From positions 62,001-126,000 of the forward strand of contig NZ_POYJ01000013.1 of NCBI RefSeq assembly GCF_002895435.1: 64,000 nucleotides of DNA, written 5' to 3'. Position 1 is the first letter of the stretch, and every line of letters begins with the position of its first letter. Position numbers and translations under genes: made by a program. Below are positions 1 to 19,186 of the stretch, piece after piece. This stretch comes from Aquimarina sediminis (lineage in GTDB: Bacteria; Bacteroidota; Bacteroidia; Flavobacteriales; Flavobacteriaceae). The notes under the pieces are model-generated. The model searched no databases and was not told the origin of the DNA. It worked only from the letters and a program-made list of their open reading frames with translations.

Positions 1-716
1 TTGCTAATCAACTCCAATATCTAATATTTAGTGATTTGATGACAGTAGATATTGTTTATAAAAAAACATCCGAGCCTAATTTTTCATCTCAGGAATATTT
101 TTTAGAAAAAGGTTTTGTAAAAATAGAGCTTCCAAAAACACCAATAAACGTAATTCGGAATAGAGAAATCAATAAATGTTTTAAATCAATAATGGGGGAA
201 TTTCAGAATTACATGGACAATTTAATAACTTGTTTAAAATTGAAGTCTACCGAACTGCATTTAGAACCTCCTATATCTGATGAGAGTGTTAACATATTTT
301 TAAAGGAGAAATTTCAAGAAGTATTGTTAGATGTTTCAACAGACAGATCATTGAATGTTCCAAAAAAATTAAATCTTTTGCTTGATGAAAATGTTTTATA
401 TAAAGAAGTAGTTCAAAGTTTCTTTAATATTCGTAATGGGTTTGAACACCATAAAAGTAAGTCTAAAAAACACAATAAAATTTGTTATAAACGTCTTGGT
501 TTTGCCTCAACTTCCGGATACGAAGTGACTCAACCTGGACCATTAGGTGTTAATGAGGGGTTAGTAATAAGAGTTTTTAATGAAGAATTAATATACGATC
601 AAGGAAGTTTAATAGTTATTACAAAGGATCAACTAAATGATATTGCGTTTAATTTTGTTCATTTTATTATACCATATTTTCAAAAAACTATCAAAGAGGA
701 ATTTCAAAAAACATAA
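1..716 (+). CDS. HEPN-like hypothetical protein, 5' end outside window
   Basis: The frame is open to the left edge of the window, so the true start may lie upstream; the first in-window ATG is at 39, giving 225 residues. The C-terminal half contains FFNIRNGFEHH, an R-x4-H arrangement like the catalytic or RNA-binding motif of HEPN domains, which are common in toxin-antitoxin and defence proteins. The stop lies against the first junction repeat (716-735), making this the first visible gene of the array. HEPN assignment rests on this motif and a helical look only; no specific family is recognised. Confidence 0.6.
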   Translation, partial: ANQLQYLIFSDLMTVDIVYKKTSEPNFSSQEYFLEKGFVKIELPKTPINVIRNREINKCFKSIMGEFQNYMDNLITCLKLKSTELHLEPPISDESVNIFLKEKFQEVLLDVSTDRSLNVPKKLNLLLDENVLYKEVVQSFFNIRNGFEHHKSKSKKHNKICYKRLGFASTSGYEVTQPGPLGVNEGLVIRVFNEELIYDQGSLIVITKDQLNDIAFNFVHFIIPYFQKTIKEEFQKT

Positions 717-735
717 AGTTAAATAAACCAATGAA
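716..735 (+). repeat. Array junction repeat, copy 1
   Basis: AAGTTAAATAAACCAATGAA. It begins on the last base of the preceding stop codon and contains TAA and ATG in the same relative places as the other copies. Confidence 0.7.
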
Positions 736-751
736 TTTTAGATAAATAGTT

Positions 752-1045
752 ATGAATGAGTTTAATTATATAATATCAGAATTAGAAGTTGATTTTTATA
801 AAGATTCTAAAGTTGAAGTATCTAAAGATGATGAATTGCTGCTCGAAGTTGATAAAATAGATGATTCCTTGTGGCTAGTTCAAACATCATGGGTTGAAGA
901 TAATTTAATTCTAATTAGGAAAGAGTTAGCGGATGAATTAGTCAAATTTTTAGAGTATAAGATTAATGAAAGACATAATACTGAGTTACCAGTCATCTTA
1001 CATCCAAACTTTTTTATGTCAATAGATGCATCTAACTCTAATTAA
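752..1045 (+). CDS. Small acidic hypothetical protein (immunity-like)
   Basis: A 97-residue acidic protein with no signal peptide or membrane segment. It lies alone between two junction repeats. Alternating beta-type segments (LLLEVDKIDDSLWLVQTSWV) followed by a helix (KELADELVKFLEYKINER) resemble the compact alpha/beta fold of many polymorphic-toxin immunity proteins, but no named family is recognised. The immunity role is inferred from size, charge and context only. Confidence 0.6.
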   Translation: MNEFNYIISELEVDFYKDSKVEVSKDDELLLEVDKIDDSLWLVQTSWVEDNLILIRKELADELVKFLEYKINERHNTELPVILHPNFFMSIDASNSN

Positions 1046-1076
1046 ACAACATTAAACTCTAAGGATAATAAATTAA

Positions 1077-1096
1077 AAGTTCAATAAAACGATGAA
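1077..1096 (+). repeat. Array junction repeat, copy 2 (consensus form)
   Basis: AAGTTCAATAAAACGATGAA. The ATG inside the repeat opens the 21-codon ORF at 1092. Confidence 0.75.
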
Positions 1097-1157
1097 GCAA
1101 ACTAAAATCAAATTTAACCCTAACAAAGAAGGTGAATTAAGAAAAGTTTTTAAGTAG
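1092..1157 (+). CDS. 21-residue ORF starting inside repeat 2
   Basis: It reads MKQTKIKFNPNKEGELRKVF plus a final K and then stops. Its ATG is the one in junction repeat 2, and another repeat follows 6 bases after its stop. It may be a truncated cassette gene or chance; no family is recognised. Confidence 0.25.
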   Translation: MKQTKIKFNPNKEGELRKVFK

Positions 1158-1163
1158 AATAAA

Positions 1164-1180
1164 AAGTTTAAATAGATGAA
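1164..1180 (+). repeat. Array junction repeat, copy 3 (shortened)
   Basis: AAGTTTAAATAGATGAA. Three bases shorter than the consensus but with the same AAGTT start and ATGAA end, directly downstream of the 21-codon ORF. Confidence 0.5.
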
Positions 1181-1211
1181 TTAATAATTAATTTACTAAA
1201 TAAAGCATATC

Positions 1212-1493
1212 ATGAATATAGAAGTTATTTGTCTTGATTCAGAAGCGTTATTTCATCTGATAGATAGAGTTGTAGATTATTTGAAGGAAAAAGAAAATAA
1301 GACCAATGGTAGCTTCCCTTGGATACCAATAAAAGAAGCAAAGAAAATGCTAGGTGTTAAAAGTGATACTACTATGCAAAAACTTAGAGATGAAGGAGAA
1401 ATAAGGTACTCTCAACCCTCTCGAAAAATTATTTTATATGATTTGAATTCGATTAATGCTTATTTAGAGAAACATGCAAGAAACACATTCTAA
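1212..1493 (+). CDS. Excisionase-like helix-turn-helix protein
   Basis: A 93-residue protein. Residues ~37-88 (WIPIKEAKKMLGVKSDTTMQ, then an RDEGEI turn and a Tyr-rich strand ending in INAYLEKH) follow the HTH_17/MerR-like DNA-binding domain used by excisionases and small regulators on Bacteroidota mobile elements. The N-terminal ~35 residues are a helix. Such proteins bind repeated DNA sites and set the direction of site-specific recombination. Its place in a repeat-punctuated array and near tRNA-derived att-like sites fits that role, but no recombinase gene accompanies it. Confidence 0.75.
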   Translation: MNIEVICLDSEALFHLIDRVVDYLKEKENKTNGSFPWIPIKEAKKMLGVKSDTTMQKLRDEGEIRYSQPSRKIILYDLNSINAYLEKHARNTF

Positions 1494-1786
1494 AAAACAA
1501 CTATCTAAATGGTATAAATAAATTACGAGTAGTAATAAAGAAAAAACCTGGACAAAGTAGTGAAGGGAATCAACAATTCTTTCTTCGTCTGAACAAAGAA
1601 AGAAGCAAACTATATATCCTGTAACAAATATGTTGGAATTCGATAAAGCTGATACAGGATAAAATAGAATGTCATGTATTGGAATATAAAGAGAAATCGA
1701 TCAATTAGTGCTTGTGGAAAAATCCAGATATGTTTACTTATATAGAAAAATATTTACTTCAAGGGATAATTCCTTGATTAGATGAA
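1494..1786. other. Gene-poor stretch with possible integrase N-terminal remnant
   Basis: No intact gene. A short open stretch on the + strand (about 1519-1623) reads KLRVVIKKK, then FFLRLNKERSKLYIL, and stops. This vaguely recalls the arm-binding N-terminus of Bacteroidota tyrosine recombinases (RKSKK...PIYLRI). It could be the ghost of an integrase, but the match is short and may be chance. Confidence 0.25.
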
Positions 1787-1806
1787 AAGTTCAATAAAAC
1801 GATGGA
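1787..1806 (+). repeat. Array junction repeat, copy 4
   Basis: AAGTTCAATAAAACGATGGA. 19 of 20 bases match copy 2, 710 bases away. Confidence 0.75.
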
Positions 1807-1886
1807 AATATAAGGGCCATATGTCATTTATTTCATTGTTGCGTGCCATTAGGAGAGACTGTTTACACATCATAAGGATATGAAAA

Positions 1887-2975
1887 ATGTTTAGACTAGG
1901 AAGAAAACAACTTGATATTAAAGAAAAGAACAAAACATCTGTTGAGACAGAAAATGCTCGATTAAAAGACGCCACAAATCCCAATAATGGGACACTTAGA
2001 TTTTCTGCTATAGAACTACATATAGCTATTGCTCGTTGCATATTATCAAGAGATTTAACCAATTTAGACTTAGTTTTTGAATCCATTTCAAGCTTCTTCC
2101 GATATCAAACTATCATTAACACAGCAAAGATGAATTTGACCCTAAATAAATCTAATTTTGAGTTGCTTCGTGATTTTTCTAAAAAAACAAGAATAGGAGA
2201 ACTGGCTCAAGGAATTACATATTTATTAGCTCAAGAGCATTTAAACTTCCCGATTGTTGTAGATTTTGAAGGATTTGTAAAATACAAAAACTCAAATGCT
2301 TCAATAAATGGAAAAACCCCAGATTTTATTTTACAAAAAGCAACAGATTTCAACTATTCATTAATTGAGTCAAAAGGACATTATGTTTCCACAAGTGGTT
2401 CAACTAAAGGAAAATTGAATAAAGCCTTACAACAATGTGATAGTGGAGAGCAGATTTTAAATACTGAAATTCCAAAGTACTCTTTAAATAAGTCTTTTGG
2501 AGTTTGTTTAAAATTATTCAACGAACAAGATTCTAATAAAAGTGAGATTCAATTTGTTGACCCCACAAGAAATAGCAGGAATGATAATTTTAATATTGAA
2601 ATAATCAGATACCATTATGCTTCTTGGTTTCTTTTAATGGGTAATATGCAGATTTATGAAAAACTTTTAGGACAAAAGGATTTGGACGAAAAGGATTTGA
2701 GAGAAACCAACATCAAAGAAATAAACGGAACGAAATATTATATGTTCGACATATTTTCATCACGATTCTTCTTTCAGTTCGACTTTTTATTTCATATGCA
2801 CTATAGACGTGAGTTTCGGAACTATGGAATAAGAGAGGATATTGTACGTTTGCTGATGGGAAAATCTAAAGAATTGCCAAAAATGAATGACTATGAATCT
2901 AAAAATAATGAGAACAAAAAGTTTGAAATATTTAATGATGGAACAATAATTAACGGCACACAACAATTTGTGTAA
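1887..2975 (+). CDS. PD-(D/E)XK nuclease-like hypothetical protein
   Basis: A 362-residue soluble protein, no signal peptide. Around residues 148-170 it reads GKTPDFILQ, then ~10 residues, then YSLIESKGHYV: the spacing of the PD-(D/E)XK nuclease core, with a preceding acidic beta-strand (VVDFEGFVKY). The rest is mixed helix and strand with a Phe-rich segment near 295-310 (SSRFFFQFDFLFHMHYRREF). Restriction-endonuclease-fold proteins of this size are common defence effectors. The nuclease call rests on the motif; the family is unknown. The start at 1887 is the first ATG after junction repeat 4. Confidence 0.6.
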   Translation: MFRLGRKQLDIKEKNKTSVETENARLKDATNPNNGTLRFSAIELHIAIARCILSRDLTNLDLVFESISSFFRYQTIINTAKMNLTLNKSNFELLRDFSKKTRIGELAQGITYLLAQEHLNFPIVVDFEGFVKYKNSNASINGKTPDFILQKATDFNYSLIESKGHYVSTSGSTKGKLNKALQQCDSGEQILNTEIPKYSLNKSFGVCLKLFNEQDSNKSEIQFVDPTRNSRNDNFNIEIIRYHYASWFLLMGNMQIYEKLLGQKDLDEKDLRETNIKEINGTKYYMFDIFSSRFFFQFDFLFHMHYRREFRNYGIREDIVRLLMGKSKELPKMNDYESKNNENKKFEIFNDGTIINGTQQFV

Positions 2976-3040
2976 TGCATATGCTTCCTTCGGGCAGCAA
3001 ACGCACCATAAAAGAGACGTTATAAAAATTTAATAAAAAT

Positions 3041-3505
3041 ATGGGTTGTTTTTTAATGAAAATAAAGATGCGTACTAAACAAATCATTCAAATAATTGGA
3101 GTAATAGGTTCAATAGTGGCTATTCTGACATATCTCTACGAAATTTATCCTTGGCCATTTGTGTTGAATCCAGATTTTGTAAAAAAAATAGATGATCGAA
3201 CAACCTGGACTCAACATGGTAGCATTGATCCTGGGACTTACAAAGGAAAACAAAAGAAAGGAGGAAACTATAAAGGAAGTCTTGCAACAATTGTTAAAAT
3301 CGATAGTGGAATTGTTTATTTCAGTAATAACGGAGGCTCTAGATATTTTTTTAATGAAACCGTAAAGCTAAACACCTTCAAGAACGATTCACTTGGAGAA
3401 CTAATAGAATTTGTATCGGTGAAAAAAGCGTTTCAGAAATATTGTAGTGATTCATCACTAAAGTGTGGTGATCGTGGAACTCTTACATTAAAAAAAGTTG
3501 ATTAA
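3041..3505 (+). CDS. Single-pass membrane hypothetical protein
   Basis: 154 residues. A membrane segment (IIQIIGVIGSIVAILTYLYE) near residues 15-34 anchors a ~115-residue polar domain with two Cys (YCSDSSLKCGDRG). ATGs at 3041, 3056 and 3068 are all possible; 3056 (MKIKMRTK) puts basic residues directly before the membrane segment and is the more typical start. Function unknown. The stop falls inside junction repeat 5. Confidence 0.65.
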   Translation: MGCFLMKIKMRTKQIIQIIGVIGSIVAILTYLYEIYPWPFVLNPDFVKKIDDRTTWTQHGSIDPGTYKGKQKKGGNYKGSLATIVKIDSGIVYFSNNGGSRYFFNETVKLNTFKNDSLGELIEFVSVKKAFQKYCSDSSLKCGDRGTLTLKKVD

Positions 3506-3514
3506 AATGATGGA
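3495..3514 (+). repeat. Array junction repeat, copy 5 (divergent)
   Basis: AAGTTGATTAAAATGATGGA. It overlaps the last codons and stop of the upstream gene and ends one base before the next ATG. Confidence 0.5.
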
Positions 3515-3715
3515 ATGAGTAAACCGAAAAGTAATAAGGGATGTTTAATTCTGTTCTTGGCAATAGGAGTTCTTATTATGTGGGGATTACCAGAAGTATT
3601 AAGAGGAGGAAACTTTTTTGATGCGATTGAAGGAAGTATTAAAGCTATTCCTTACGTGTTAGGAGTTGTTGCCGTGGGGTATTTGATAATAAAATATTTA
3701 GATAATCAAAACTAA
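3515..3715 (+). CDS. Two-TM small membrane protein
   Basis: 66 residues with two hydrophobic segments (CLILFLAIGVLIMWGLPEVL and YVLGVVAVGYLIIKYL) linked by a short loop (RGGNFFDAIEGSIKAI). It starts 10 bases after the previous stop, so it is probably co-transcribed with it. Two-TM proteins of this type occur among immunity proteins to membrane-targeting toxins, but no family is recognised. Confidence 0.6.
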   Translation: MSKPKSNKGCLILFLAIGVLIMWGLPEVLRGGNFFDAIEGSIKAIPYVLGVVAVGYLIIKYLDNQN

Positions 3716-3720
3716 TTAAT

Positions 3721-3736
3721 AGTTCAATAAAACGAT
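3721..3736 (+). repeat. Array junction repeat, copy 6
   Basis: AGTTCAATAAAACGAT, then TAAG instead of GAA. The next gene uses an ATG 14 bases further on. Confidence 0.65.
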
Positions 3737-3749
3737 AAGTTAAGTAAAT

Positions 3750-4028
3750 ATGACTGATGAAGAATTCGAGTTAGAAGCATTAAATTTTTTCAGAGAAAAT
3801 GCAAAATATTATTCTGCGAGCTATCCAATAGATTTTAAATCTGACGCTCTTAATTATGTAAAAAAAAGCCGCTCCTTTAAATATAAAGATGATGTTGAAG
3901 CCGGAGTTTTAGTAACTTGTTTAGTCGACTTAGGTTACATAGAATTTGTGAAAAAGGAAAATAATATTAGATATCACTCCTTAACAGAAAAAGGGCAAGG
4001 TTTTATCAATAAGCTAAAGTTCAGATAA
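3750..4028 (+). CDS. Winged-helix-like hypothetical protein
   Basis: 92 residues. The C-terminal half (VLVTCLVDLGYIEFVKK, then YHSLTEKGQGFI) looks like the recognition helix and wing of a winged HTH domain. Alternatively it is a small immunity-type protein. The last three codons and stop (KFR-TAA) are encoded by junction repeat 7, so its C-terminus is fixed by the repeat. Confidence 0.6.
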   Translation: MTDEEFELEALNFFRENAKYYSASYPIDFKSDALNYVKKSRSFKYKDDVEAGVLVTCLVDLGYIEFVKKENNIRYHSLTEKGQGFINKLKFR

Positions 4029-4036
4029 ACGATGAG
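4017..4036 (+). repeat. Array junction repeat, copy 7 (encodes stop and start)
   Basis: AAGTTCAGATAAACGATGAG. The TAA ends the upstream gene and the ATG, three bases later, starts the downstream gene: the clearest case of the stop-start arrangement. Confidence 0.75.
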
Positions 4037-4412
4037 AACAAGTGGTATTGAAATATTAGAAGCTTATGGCTTTGAAAAAAAACTGGATAAAATAGGTCGA
4101 TATTGTAATAAGAATAGGTGGGTGTATTTCCTTGAATCAAGGAACAAAGGTGAATATCTTGTTTTCAGCTCCAATTGTTTTGATAAGAAATTACAACCCA
4201 AAAACTTTGATTCTTGGATTGATACGTATAACAGTGTGAAACAAATAGGCACTACTCCACCTTTAAAAAGTAAAATATTAAAGTTTAGTTTTAATTTTTG
4301 TGAGGATATTGATCTTTTGAAAAAAATAATGCCAATCAAATCACCAAAAAAGATATCTCGGAAATTGGGACTATCTTTAAAAGATATAAAAGAAAAACAT
4401 AAATCTGAATAA
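4032..4412 (+). CDS. Hypothetical protein
   Basis: 126 residues, basic (many Lys), no signal peptide or membrane segment. It starts at the ATG inside junction repeat 7 and stops immediately before repeat 8. Contains WVYFLESRNKGEYLVFSS (beta hairpin) and a C-terminal basic helix (ISRKLGLSLKDIKEKHK). Not recognised. Confidence 0.6.
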   Translation: MRTSGIEILEAYGFEKKLDKIGRYCNKNRWVYFLESRNKGEYLVFSSNCFDKKLQPKNFDSWIDTYNSVKQIGTTPPLKSKILKFSFNFCEDIDLLKKIMPIKSPKKISRKLGLSLKDIKEKHKSE

Positions 4413-4431
4413 AGTTCAAATAAACGATGAA
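4412..4431 (+). repeat. Array junction repeat, copy 8
   Basis: AAGTTCAAATAAACGATGAA. It begins on the last base of the upstream stop. Its ATG opens only a five-codon frame (MNCNK). Confidence 0.75.
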
Positions 4432-4444
4432 TTGTAATAAGTAA

Positions 4445-4558
4445 ATGGTCATATTAGAAAAAATAACTTTTGTCCTCATATTCACTAATTTTATATATTT
4501 CTGGAATAAATATGTAGTAACAAAGTTGATTCAGAGTGTTGTAAAAAAAATCAAATAA
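4445..4558 (+). CDS. Possible 37-residue single-TM peptide
   Basis: Starts 13 bases after junction repeat 8. It has a hydrophobic core (FVLIFTNFIYFW) and a basic tail (VVKKIK). It fits the pattern of one short gene per junction repeat, but could be chance in AT-rich DNA. Confidence 0.3.
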   Translation: MVILEKITFVLIFTNFIYFWNKYVVTKLIQSVVKKIK

Positions 4559-4677
4559 TAAATGGTTATCAAGGAATCAAGAGACAATTATTAAGATATA
4601 TCAAGGTTTCTTTCGGTCATCACTTTTATTGTTAATTATTAGCTTGTTATTTAGTAATTAATCTTAGGTTTCTTAAA

Positions 4678-4697
4678 AATTTAAATAATCGATGGAA
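4678..4697 (+). repeat. Array junction repeat, copy 9 (divergent)
   Basis: AATTTAAATAATCGATGGAA. The ATG at 4692 inside it opens the frameshifted gene downstream. Confidence 0.5.
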
Positions 4698-4989
4698 AAC
4701 TATATTCAATACGCTGGAGGATATCAAAAAGATAATATCGATTTATCTGATATCAAAAGCCATAAAAGATGTTCAGCAAGCAGATGATGAGCACGGTGCT
4801 TTTTGGGTTTCTGTAATAATAGAAAATGAAAATATAATTGAAACCAATAAAGATTTAAATCTTTCAATTATTCTGGATGAAGAACAAATGAAGTTTCAAG
4901 CTACCAACTGGACAGAAGTTGAGGAGCTTTTCATATTATTATTGGATGAAAAATTCATCGATATAAAAAATAAAATAAAAGTTCAATAA
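4692..4989 (+). pseudogene. Immunity-like small protein gene, frameshifted
   Basis: From ATG 4692 the frame reads MENYIQYAGGYQKDNIDLSD, then IK, and is lost after the AAAA run at 4755-4758. In the +1 frame it resumes as IKDVQQADDEHGAFWVSVI and runs to the stop at 4987, which lies in junction repeat 10 (KVQ-stop). Joined, it would be ~98 residues, acidic and alpha/beta, like small immunity proteins such as the Imm1-type group (resemblance only). A one-base change in a homopolymer may be a real mutation or a sequencing error. Confidence 0.6.
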
Positions 4990-4997
4990 ACTGATAC
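4979..4997 (+). repeat. Array junction repeat, copy 10
   Basis: AAGTTCAATAAACTGATAC. It provides the final codons and stop of the frameshifted gene. The ATG is changed to ATAC, and no gene starts here. Confidence 0.65.
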
Positions 4998-5127: not shown

Positions 5128-6378
5128 ATGAAAAAACAAATTCTATTAATACTTACATTAACTATTTTTTATAATTATTATACTTTTTCCCAAGATAAAA
5201 TTAAGGCAGATATAAAAACAATGTTATTCCTGGGAAGAATTCCCGAAAAGACAAAGAGCAATACTTTATCTGATAATTTATTGAGGGTTTTATACTATAA
5301 TATTCAATCTAATAATAGCCAAAAAATTGGATATATGAATAAAAAAGGAAAAATTTTGATAAAACCAAAGTATTCCATGTGTTCTGATTTTTATGGTAAT
5401 TATGCTAATATAATTAGGGACTCAATATTTGGATATATAAATAAAGAAGGTGAAGAGGTTTTGTTAAAACAATATGATACTACTTTTTTCTATTATGGGG
5501 ATACAGGGGTTGCCAAAAAAAATGGTAAATATGGTTTGATCAATAGAAAAGGAGATTCTTTAACTGGTTTTAACTATACAATGATAGATTTTTTCGGATT
5601 TAACTATTTTAAAGGCCATACAGAGGATAGAAAAAGTCAAATTTTGGATGAAAAAGGAAATATTATTTTCAATAAAAATTTAGTTTTCAATATAAGAAGT
5701 GATTATTTTGAATCAGAATCAGTATTTGTTTATCAAGAAATAATTGAAGGTAAGGAACTTAAAGGCCTTGTGAATTTAGACGGAAAAATTATACTTAAGC
5801 CTACATATCAAGAGATATACTTTATCGATGATAAAGATTATTATGTGGTAAAGCATGAAAATAAATGGGGATTTATTAATAAAACAGGGGATGAAGCAAT
5901 TCCGTTAATTTATGATGAAGTTAGTTTTAATATTAATGATGATTTAATTCCTGTTAAGAAAAAAGATAAATGGGGGTATGTTAACAGAAAAAATGAAGTA
6001 GAAATTCCATTTATCTATGATAAAGCTTATGCTTTTTTGGAAGACTTGGCTTTTGTTAAAAAAGGAAACTACTATAAGTGTATAGATAAGCATAATAAGA
6101 TCAAAGTCAATACTGATCTGAAAACAACCGATTTCCCATTCTTCGTAAATAGTTTGGCATTATTTAAAAAAGAAAATAAATATGGTTTTTTGAATAAAAA
6201 AGGAAAAATTAAAATCCCTGCTATGTATGACTTAGCTTATCCATTCATTAATGGATTGGCATATGTGGAATTAAATGGAAAAGTTGGCTATATTAATACT
6301 AAAGGTAATGAGGTAATACCTATTAAATATGGACAACTTTGGTTTGAAAGTGAGGGAATAATAAGGTTTGTAGAATAG
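5128..6378 (+). CDS. Secreted WG-repeat protein
   Basis: 416 residues. The N-terminus (MKKQILLILTLTIFYNYYTFSQ) is a signal peptide. The mature part is built of ~10 WG-type repeats (KYGLINRKGD, KWGFINKTGD, KWGYVNRKNE, KYGFLNKKGK, KVGYINTKGN), each followed by a beta strand ending in (I/L)P-x3-YD. WG repeats form beta-propeller-like extracellular or periplasmic domains in many Bacteroidota; partner unknown. Such proteins often accompany polymorphic-toxin or immunity arrays. It has a longer leader than its neighbours (no junction repeat at its start) and is probably transcribed separately. Confidence 0.85.
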   Translation: MKKQILLILTLTIFYNYYTFSQDKIKADIKTMLFLGRIPEKTKSNTLSDNLLRVLYYNIQSNNSQKIGYMNKKGKILIKPKYSMCSDFYGNYANIIRDSIFGYINKEGEEVLLKQYDTTFFYYGDTGVAKKNGKYGLINRKGDSLTGFNYTMIDFFGFNYFKGHTEDRKSQILDEKGNIIFNKNLVFNIRSDYFESESVFVYQEIIEGKELKGLVNLDGKIILKPTYQEIYFIDDKDYYVVKHENKWGFINKTGDEAIPLIYDEVSFNINDDLIPVKKKDKWGYVNRKNEVEIPFIYDKAYAFLEDLAFVKKGNYYKCIDKHNKIKVNTDLKTTDFPFFVNSLALFKKENKYGFLNKKGKIKIPAMYDLAYPFINGLAYVELNGKVGYINTKGNEVIPIKYGQLWFESEGIIRFVE

Positions 6379-6896: not shown

Positions 6897-6942
6897 GGCT
6901 CATAACCCGAAGGTCACAGGTTCGAGTCCTGTTCCCGCTACT
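6897..6942 (+). repeat. tRNA-fMet 3'-half direct repeat (att core), copy 1
   Basis: 46 bases that read as the anticodon loop (CTCATAA), 3' anticodon stem, variable loop (AGGTC), T arm (ACAGGTTCGAGTCCTGT) and 3' acceptor (TCCCGCTA) of an initiator tRNA-fMet. The 5' half is missing, so this is not a working tRNA. Repeated at 18704 and 31500; integrating elements that target tRNA 3' ends leave such copies. Confidence 0.85.
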
Positions 6943-18754: not shown

Positions 18755-18792
18755 GCTAAAACATTGAATTTTAATGTTTTAGCTTTTTTTTG
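18755..18792 (+). terminator. Hairpin terminator after tRNA repeat 2
   Basis: GCTAAAACATT pairs perfectly with AATGTTTTAGC and is followed by a run of nine T. Confidence 0.8.
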
Positions 18793-18911
18793 TTTTATAA
18801 GAATTTCTATGCTTTTCTACCCTAGGGTTCCCTACAATCATTCTTGCAATTTATTTTTAATGATTTGATTTTTAGGTGTTTATGAATATTGAAATTCCCT
18901 ATTTTAATCTG

Positions 18912-18929
18912 AAGTATCTTTTGGAGTAT
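18912..18929 (+). repeat. att-like right arm boxes, site 2
   Basis: AAGTAT at 18912 and GAGTAT at 18924, 12 bases apart as at site 1, but further from the core (~165 bases). Weaker matches than sites 1 and 3. Confidence 0.35.
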
Positions 18930-19186
18930 CTTTTTGAACTTGATAGCTATGCTCTCAGATTATTTTTTTGAGAAGGAATTGTTCAATAAACTACAGAAAG
19001 TATACCTTGTCAATGCAAGAAAGCGAAAAAAACTTCTAGGGAGATCAAAAGATCCTAAAAAAAGAAACCATAGAAAAATACCAATACACCAAACATCTCT
19101 ATGATAATATGAATATTCCTATAGATCAAGCCTGTAAAAGGACAGGGGTGATCAAGGCTACTTTGGATCAAGATCAATTGTTGTGT
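18930..19186. other. Degenerate region, no intact gene
   Basis: Short broken + strand frames (for example NIPIDQACKRTGVIKATLDQ near 19112-19170) suggest remnants of former genes. Nothing is intact. Confidence 0.3.

Follow-up and report, generated by a model that had tools for sequence, protein, structure and literature searches.

A window of 64,000 nucleotides from the Aquimarina sediminis genome (contig NZ_POYJ01000013.1, positions 62,001 to 126,000; G000:C4:62001-126000 in our coordinates, where G000 is the genome under study) opens with an array of short co-directional genes separated by copies of one 18-19 bp site. We found comparable arrays in many other marine Flavobacteriaceae, and we consider it probable that all of them represent an integron-like gene-cassette system driven by a small serine recombinase, with the window array as an orphan member. 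The sites most likely serve such an enzyme, of the resolvase/invertase type, as crossover subsites; its gene stands at the head of many arrays. Each cassette is usually one gene in array direction bounded by 19-bp sites; the head recombinase would act on directly repeated sites and excise cassettes as circles, which would be inserted or exchanged at array sites, such that whole genes may swap while the site preserves a stop codon and a start region rich in A/T. The action of the head enzyme on the sites, the circle intermediates and the capture of new cassettes are predictions from sequence comparison.

The cassette site and its arrays

Alignment of the array sites defines a sharply bounded element of 18-19 bp, AAAGTTCAAATAAACGAT(G), whose conservation spans about 18 nt and ends abruptly; the array consensus of the 19-bp site is AAAGTTCAAATAAACGATG. 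The first-pass annotation of the window had described at least ten copies of this repeat from position 716 onward. The repeat is confirmed by nine clear same-strand copies in a weight-matrix scan (Table 1), which score 13-31 bits with a matrix partly trained on those very sites, and by a tenth, degenerate copy near 1162 that is seen by eye only; the proposed array start was not borne out, as four further weight-matrix sites lie upstream of the window (C4 60924, 61177, 61474 and 61699). Allowing up to three mismatches, the originally noted 20-mer matches five times in the window, always inside 716-4431, against 0.06 expected from shuffles. Across the whole genome, ten matches have 0-2 mismatches, of which nine are grouped at C4 61.7-66.4 kb and at C6 31.0-35.4 kb and one is a stray on C22; at three mismatches there are 39 matches versus 20 for the reversed pattern, those outside the clusters being mostly background. 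This confinement to two clusters indicates that the site is not a genome-wide signal; it was genome-wide occurrence between housekeeping genes that the first-pass annotation had said would count against a cassette-exchange array.

Beyond this genome, a degenerate exact pattern occurs in eight of 299 Flavobacteriaceae genomes (including that of A. sediminis) and its reversed form in none, and an exact 20-mer scan of a public genome collection returned 65 stretches in about 46 assemblies, 43 of the 46 being Flavobacteriaceae by their titles and three loosely labelled metagenome-assembled genomes. The carriers include Flagellimonas/Muricauda, Maribacter, Aquimarina, Pricia, Euzebyella, Pseudozobellia, Pelagihabitans and other genera, all of which we take to be placed in Flavobacteriaceae. 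Weight-matrix sites number 138 versus 4 in reversed sequence over the 573 kb of regions on which the matrix was trained, and 367 versus 2 over 503 kb of other loci, each picked by one exact match, with some overlap with the training contigs and some near-identical loci among them; the plain pattern gives 262 matches versus 13 reversed in 12 whole genomes. Within Aquimarina, the total in 19 of 66 genomes lies above 8, the highest reached by a control. Other families of the class do not rise over the controls: with at most one mismatch, six of 148 other class-level genomes have one match each versus seven with reversed-pattern matches. Three IMG/VR viral contigs (L162, L163 and L164) each bear one exact site.

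Across 66 regions (1.19 Mb), 515 sites delimit 415 site-to-site intervals with a median length of 550 bp, and the main open reading frame (ORF) runs along the array direction in 369 of these, opposite to it in 17 and is absent from 29. Among the 369, the stop codon falls inside the next site in 97 intervals, at most 60 bp before it in 201, further up in 70 and beyond it in one, and in 100 the start lies at the end of the preceding site. The stop-start overlap that the first-pass annotation had made a design feature is real at the copies read, such as that between the ORFs 3750-4028 and 4032-4412 (Table 1), and is not universal. More than one reading frame runs into the site, which points to selection acting on the DNA. 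Only 13 of 367 sites have the minority orientation within their locus; ten of these stand at heads or in head-type pairs (L099, L118, L120, L138, L142, L152 and L154, with L118 counted here because of its homology to the L099 and L154 heads), and the rest are in L134, L153 and L158. At 80 sampled sites from the 415 intervals we found no hairpin (mean folding z of -0.30 and -0.28 for the two strands), and the hairpin attC was rejected as the site type.

The contents look like a mixed gene store, mostly of unknown genes with scattered enzymes. For 100 random cassette proteins, drawn from ORFs of at least 50 amino acids (aa) in genomes other than that of A. sediminis, Pfam gave 51 scattered families, the commonest among the matches listed being Beta-lactamase (4/100), and PADLOC models matched two. 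As a general description, the defence or immunity array proposed by the first-pass annotation is not sustained by these PADLOC and Pfam results, which included no dedicated toxin-immunity search. The arrays of A. sediminis itself (27 proteins) yield five PADLOC model matches of three kinds, PD-Lambda-1, PDC-S57 and PDC-M28C, of which the PD-Lambda-1-type gene is the clearest defence candidate, assigned from its domains to L032:9396-10820; this T5orf172/DUF4041 gene, in cassette position in the array on contig C6, is likely the PD-Lambda-1 match. A ParDE pair occurs in L120.

Site-bounded sharing and the head resolvases

Recurrent intervals form 27 DNA families that take in 63 of the 415 intervals. 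One of these (F1, five members) is the head region, another (F26) repeats within one array and six (F13-F18, 12 members) come from a single array seen in near-identical genomes; removing them leaves 19 families common to different arrays or genomes. Among cassette pairs of at least 70% identity, F24 is a 701-bp cassette that is 99-100% identical in two species with unrelated flanks, the F23 and F20 cassettes are each 96% identical amid unrelated neighbours, and F0 occurs in five arrays, with 92-97% identity among the four compared. In a set of 181 in-array homologies, each of at least 120 bp and clear of sequence ends, 139 of 362 query ends fall on a site, versus a mean of 9.1 and a maximum of 24 for shifted sites; both partners are at a site in 110 ends and 20 two-ended cases, versus maxima of 4 and 0 in a lenient control that shifts the partners independently. 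That homology between arrays begins and ends on sites supports the earlier suggestion of cassette exchange at the repeat, including exchange between genomes at site boundaries. No two strains among these genomes were found to differ by a single exact cassette insertion at one and the same position: G316 and G318 have whole blocks in common at 100% identity, but in their other two arrays only one cassette and a 96-bp fragment are common.

The gene at the head of the arrays is classified, by its PF00239 matches (3.2e-41 and 1.6e-42) and by the Y(A/V)RxST and KLDRxARS-type motifs of the aligned proteins, as a small serine recombinase of the resolvase/invertase family; the Ser and Arg of these motifs are presumably catalytic. 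Its closest solved structures by sequence are a DNA invertase (1e-36) and the gamma-delta resolvase (2.5e-31). A PF00239 search of 25 array genomes, a set without the genome of L158, recovered an intact head-type resolvase in 16. Such genes stand upstream of, and co-directional with, both G258 arrays and those of G299, G301, G302, G305, G306, G307 and G308, as well as G309, G310, G314 and G315, the first strong site following at a distance of about 0.1-7 kb. From the 45 PF00239 rows 30 loci were taken, of which 25 have ORFs readable by our motif filter, 19 in the head clade and six in another small-resolvase clade. The filter missed L183, though this locus shows the inverted site described below; L184 and L185 are large serine recombinases, and L186 and L187 were left unclassified.

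An inverted copy of the cassette site lies 106-111 bp before the start codon (about -108) in 16 of the 19 readable head-clade genes, the other three comprising one locus that ends at a contig edge and two that have diverged there, and it is present in none of the six genes of the other clade from the same genomes. Most head copies read GGT where array sites have GAT, and several heads carry a third site copy near -25 with a conserved block between, a layout that recalls the res region of Tn3-type resolvases. The head clade also tracks the arrays. Among 13 resolvase loci, each covering 3-16 kb, all seven of the head type have downstream array sites (2, 2, 1, 4, 7, 3 and 13, which makes 32 co-directional and none opposite), and all six with the other resolvase type have none, one of them covering only 3.3 kb; this comparison is not fully blind, because the genomes were chosen as array holders, two of the seven head loci had sites already known and the first strong site is 3.2-14.3 kb away in four loci. 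The heads are conserved in front of variable arrays: those of G315 and G301 are 96% identical over 911 bp up to the first site, and those of G308 and G306 92% identical over 1545 bp, with unrelated arrays beyond in both cases.

Two further loci are of note for their architecture. One contig (G300:C10, L199/L200) has two head-type res regions, at about 8.2 kb and 20.7 kb; behind the second come 23 intervals with no adjacent resolvase gene, as though heads can lose the enzyme gene. In Maribacter arenosus (G258:C20, L055/L065-L067), two arrays point away from one another, with their head resolvase genes about 27 kb apart.

Alternative explanations and known systems

Several observations weigh against a serine-recombinase cassette system. 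Recombination is read here from sequence, and recombination products were not seen. Conserved accessory subsites are missing from the array sites, and resolvases usually need a full res site. Several heads are distant from their first strong site, at 3-14 kb (G258a, G302, G306, G310 and G303:C14, and also G311:C67, G304:C52 and G172:C3). Nine of the 25 genomes are without a recognised intact head-type resolvase: G120, G289, G300, G312 and G313 have arrays and no recognised head-type gene, G000, G138 and G217 have head remnants only (G217 also has an unclassified 202-aa PF00239 gene without sites, L186) and G179 has one site only. Of the 45 PF00239 rows, 15 did not enter the set of loci; one of them, G314:C204, was later examined as L240, and another is a 216-aa gene (G308:C1:906853). 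No crossover point could be mapped, since shared cassettes differ at site positions that a single point would not explain: in pairs of at least 95% identity they fall at positions 10-19 of the right site and at 1, 2, 10, 11, 17 and 19 of the left. Between neighbouring sites, central positions 10-11 match no more than chance and several arm positions match slightly above it. The head remnant at the C6 array has no recognisable inverted site.

The inverted orientation of the head site relative to the array sites also counts on this side, and it is central to the proposal that the enzyme works chiefly as an invertase or an autoregulated resolvase: recombination of the inverted head site with an array site would flip the head segment and switch expression, and cassette movement would be secondary or proceed by other means. 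This would suit a protein whose best solved relative is a DNA invertase and for which NCBIfam lists the Mpi invertase family, at a score far below the cut-off. We judge it quite unlikely nonetheless, as not one of the 32 sites found downstream in the seven head loci is opposite, flipped heads not having been systematically searched, and as long one-direction arrays together with the sharing of single site-bounded cassettes between species require movement and not inversion alone. Movement could instead be provided in trans, by a tyrosine recombinase of the Xer or phage type or by RecA acting on short repeats after DNA uptake, with the resolvase as a passenger. Some arrays are indeed without a recognised head-type resolvase, a tyrosine integrase adjoins the C6 array and others lie near G258a and the G289 array, and XerCD is reported to move gene modules at 28-bp sites in Acinetobacter (PMC13141974). 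Only some arrays have such an integrase nearby, and its position varies, being downstream for C6 and G258a and upstream for G289; the C6-adjacent one was rejected as a general array enzyme because of this patchy occurrence; the resolvase, for its part, bears the same site upstream and tracks the arrays in seven of seven versus none of six loci. Moreover, 19 bp is short for RecA, and we hold movement in trans to be unlikely.

A very improbable alternative is that these are tyrosine-recombinase arrays proper, namely integrons, clusters of attC sites lacking integron integrases (CALIN) or a Flavobacteriaceae version of the recombinase-associated acquired interbacterial defence (rAID) arrays. The logic of co-directional short genes with conserved sites between them is the same, and the TIGR02249 model matches tyrosine recombinases in all eight carrier genomes at E 1e-5, with a best score of 135 bits; none of the eight passes its 265-bit cut-off, on which count the integron integrase was rejected as the array enzyme. 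The sampled sites have no hairpin, the array-linked recombinase is of the serine type and the contents are mostly not defence. Hardly any credence attaches to the repeat being a mere translation start or gene-end signal of neighbouring operon genes: it is A/T-rich and often overlaps stop and start codons, and we regard this explanation as refuted by its restriction to two clusters of the genome; the site is also read in more than one frame, stands no higher than the controls in the other families of the class and coincides with the limits of shared DNA.

A serine-recombinase cassette system has partial counterparts in several known systems. As in the TnpR/res system of the Tn3-family element gamma-delta, there is a small serine recombinase with an upstream region of about 110 bp holding several site-like repeats, the most distal of which is crossover-like, as we take res to be built; the difference is that the distal subsite sequence recurs here many times downstream as a cassette boundary. 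With integrons, sedentary chromosomal integrons and CALIN, as defined in PMC8618304, the arrays have in common one-direction, mostly single-ORF cassettes with one site each, largely unknown genes with some toxin-antitoxin pairs, a conserved head before a variable array, orphan arrays without an enzyme and sharing of cassettes between species. They differ in being tied to a serine recombinase, with IntI above cut-off in none of the eight carriers, in an 18-19 bp site without a hairpin and in a head gene that is co-directional with the array and has an inverted site upstream. The first-pass annotation had likened the window array to rAID, in which a tyrosine recombinase stands upstream of orphan T6SS immunity genes in Bacteroidales (PMC12247911). 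Co-directional short genes, a conserved intergenic motif (likened by description), a recombinase at the array and the Bacteroidota host are indeed alike, but the comparison fails on the recombinase, which here is of the serine type, and the contents here appear mixed; a tyrosine recombinase (203-aa frame) is just upstream of only one compared array, that of G289. The dif (pdif) modules of Acinetobacter plasmids likewise consist of genes flanked by short double-stranded recombination sites, at which whole modules are moved among replicons (PMC13141974); they use the tyrosine recombinases XerC/XerD and 28-bp sites of alternating orientation, whereas the array sites here are one-way and many arrays have their own recombinase gene. 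We do not file the arrays as integrons or rAID because the tested defining features of an integron, the integrase and the hairpin attC, fail, as does the rAID recombinase feature.

The A. sediminis arrays and the meaning of the system

The A. sediminis genome has a second array with the same site on contig C6, at about 26.7-35.7 kb. A two-gene block of the window (4413-4990) is 97% identical over 584 bp to about L032:12617-13199 of that array, the limits of the alignment falling inside sites on both sides; beyond these sites the flanks are unrelated (identity of 0.20 upstream and 0.33 downstream over 40 bases), and the window copies of the two genes carry frame-breaking indels. In front of the window array, a head remnant at C4 60473 (window coordinate -1527) opens MLFGYARISTPS and then breaks off, the protein start being placed by eye. 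Over 152 bp this region matches the A. algiphila head region at 84% identity, and a weight-matrix site lies inverted 106 bp upstream (C4 60367); tblastn with the resolvase queries did not report this remnant. On C6, 26543-26704 is a degraded head fragment (tblastn 6e-9 to the A. algiphila protein). The sole PF00239 match in this genome is a protein of 536 aa and, judged by these comparisons, both arrays are orphans whose head genes persist only as remnants. Elsewhere in the window, at 18790-19165, tblastn with L166, L168-L170, L188 and L191 picks up what is left of a small serine resolvase from the other clade, with no cassette site of at least 12 bits nearby.

The window array is part of a genomic island in a tRNA gene. 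The island, of about 10 kb, lies between tRNA-Met (L031:14948-15021) and a 46-bp direct repeat of its 3' end, includes a DDE transposase (L031:15438-16259) and is wholly absent from another Aquimarina genome, G365 (locus L215); gene order in the region is therefore not the same in all relatives, which the first-pass annotation had considered would tell against cassette exchange. The Aquimarina survey of this locus showed six further genomes with the TolC/tRNA-Met side, no sites in 14-18 kb and an unmatched downstream flank, one (G330) being interrupted by a contig end and one (G344) having another island. This G344 island, at the same tRNA-Met locus in a close relative (L216, G344:C1:87000-106500), is without sites; among its genes are one for tRNA-Gln and another that is tRNA-like.

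Table 1. Features of the cassette array and the island end in the window (window coordinates)
Feature	Position	Strand	Evidence and remarks
Cassette ORF	1..716	+	Begins upstream of the window (L031:17959-18717, 252 aa); in-window part without Pfam family
Cassette site, weak, 13 bits	715..733	+	Weight matrix
Cassette ORF, 97 aa, unknown	752..1045	+	ORF list, Pfam
Cassette site AAAGTTCAATAAAACGATG, 28 bits	1076..1094	+	20-mer and weight matrix
Cassette ORF, HTH_17 (PF12728, 4.3e-7)	1212..1493	+	Pfam
Cassette site, 28 bits	1786..1804	+	Weight matrix
Cassette ORF, 362 aa, no Pfam family	1887..2975	+	ORF list, Pfam
Cassette ORF, 154 aa, stop within following site	3041..3505	+	ORF list, weight matrix
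Cassette site, weak, 14 bits	3494..3512	+	Weight matrix
Cassette ORF, 66 aa	3515..3715	+	ORF list
Cassette site, 21 bits	3719..3737	+	Weight matrix
Cassette ORF, 92 aa, stop within following site	3750..4028	+	ORF list
Cassette site, 27 bits; TAA closes one gene, ATG opens the next	4016..4034	+	Weight matrix
Cassette ORF, 126 aa	4032..4412	+	ORF list
Cassette site, full consensus AAAGTTCAAATAAACGATG, 31 bits	4411..4429	+	Weight matrix
Two-cassette block common to the C6 array (97%)	4413..4990	+	Homology limits inside sites
Cassette site, 19 bits, inside the block common to C6	4676..4694	+	Weight matrix
Last clear cassette site, 18 bits	4978..4996	+	Weight matrix
WG-repeat protein (PF14903, 4.8e-60), past the last site, within the island	5128..6378	+	Pfam
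46-bp duplicate of the tRNA-Met 3' end, right end of the island	6897..6942	+	Intact tRNA at L031:14948-15021

Among the matches listed in a search of the open-access literature (titles and abstract openings, most subscription papers being outside its scope) there were no serine-recombinase cassette arrays, and the literal site sequence had no match in the open-access literature searched. To our knowledge, cassette platforms that gather single genes are known mainly with tyrosine recombinases (integrons, Xer modules and rAID). We rate the machinery described here as new in kind, with a familiar, integron-like logic and a predicted recombinase activity. On balance, it seems likely that marine Flavobacteriaceae take up, keep and exchange gene cassettes at a 19-bp double-stranded site by means of a small serine recombinase with a res-like head, as an independently evolved second integron-like solution. 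Together, site and head enzyme make such arrays easy to search for, and a double-stranded site this short would suit engineering use. If this reading is right, gene-cassette capture evolved more than once, and the marine Flavobacteriaceae, a family prominent in marine polysaccharide niches, would hold an unrecognised shared gene pool, of which only 63 of 415 intervals so far belong to multi-member DNA families.

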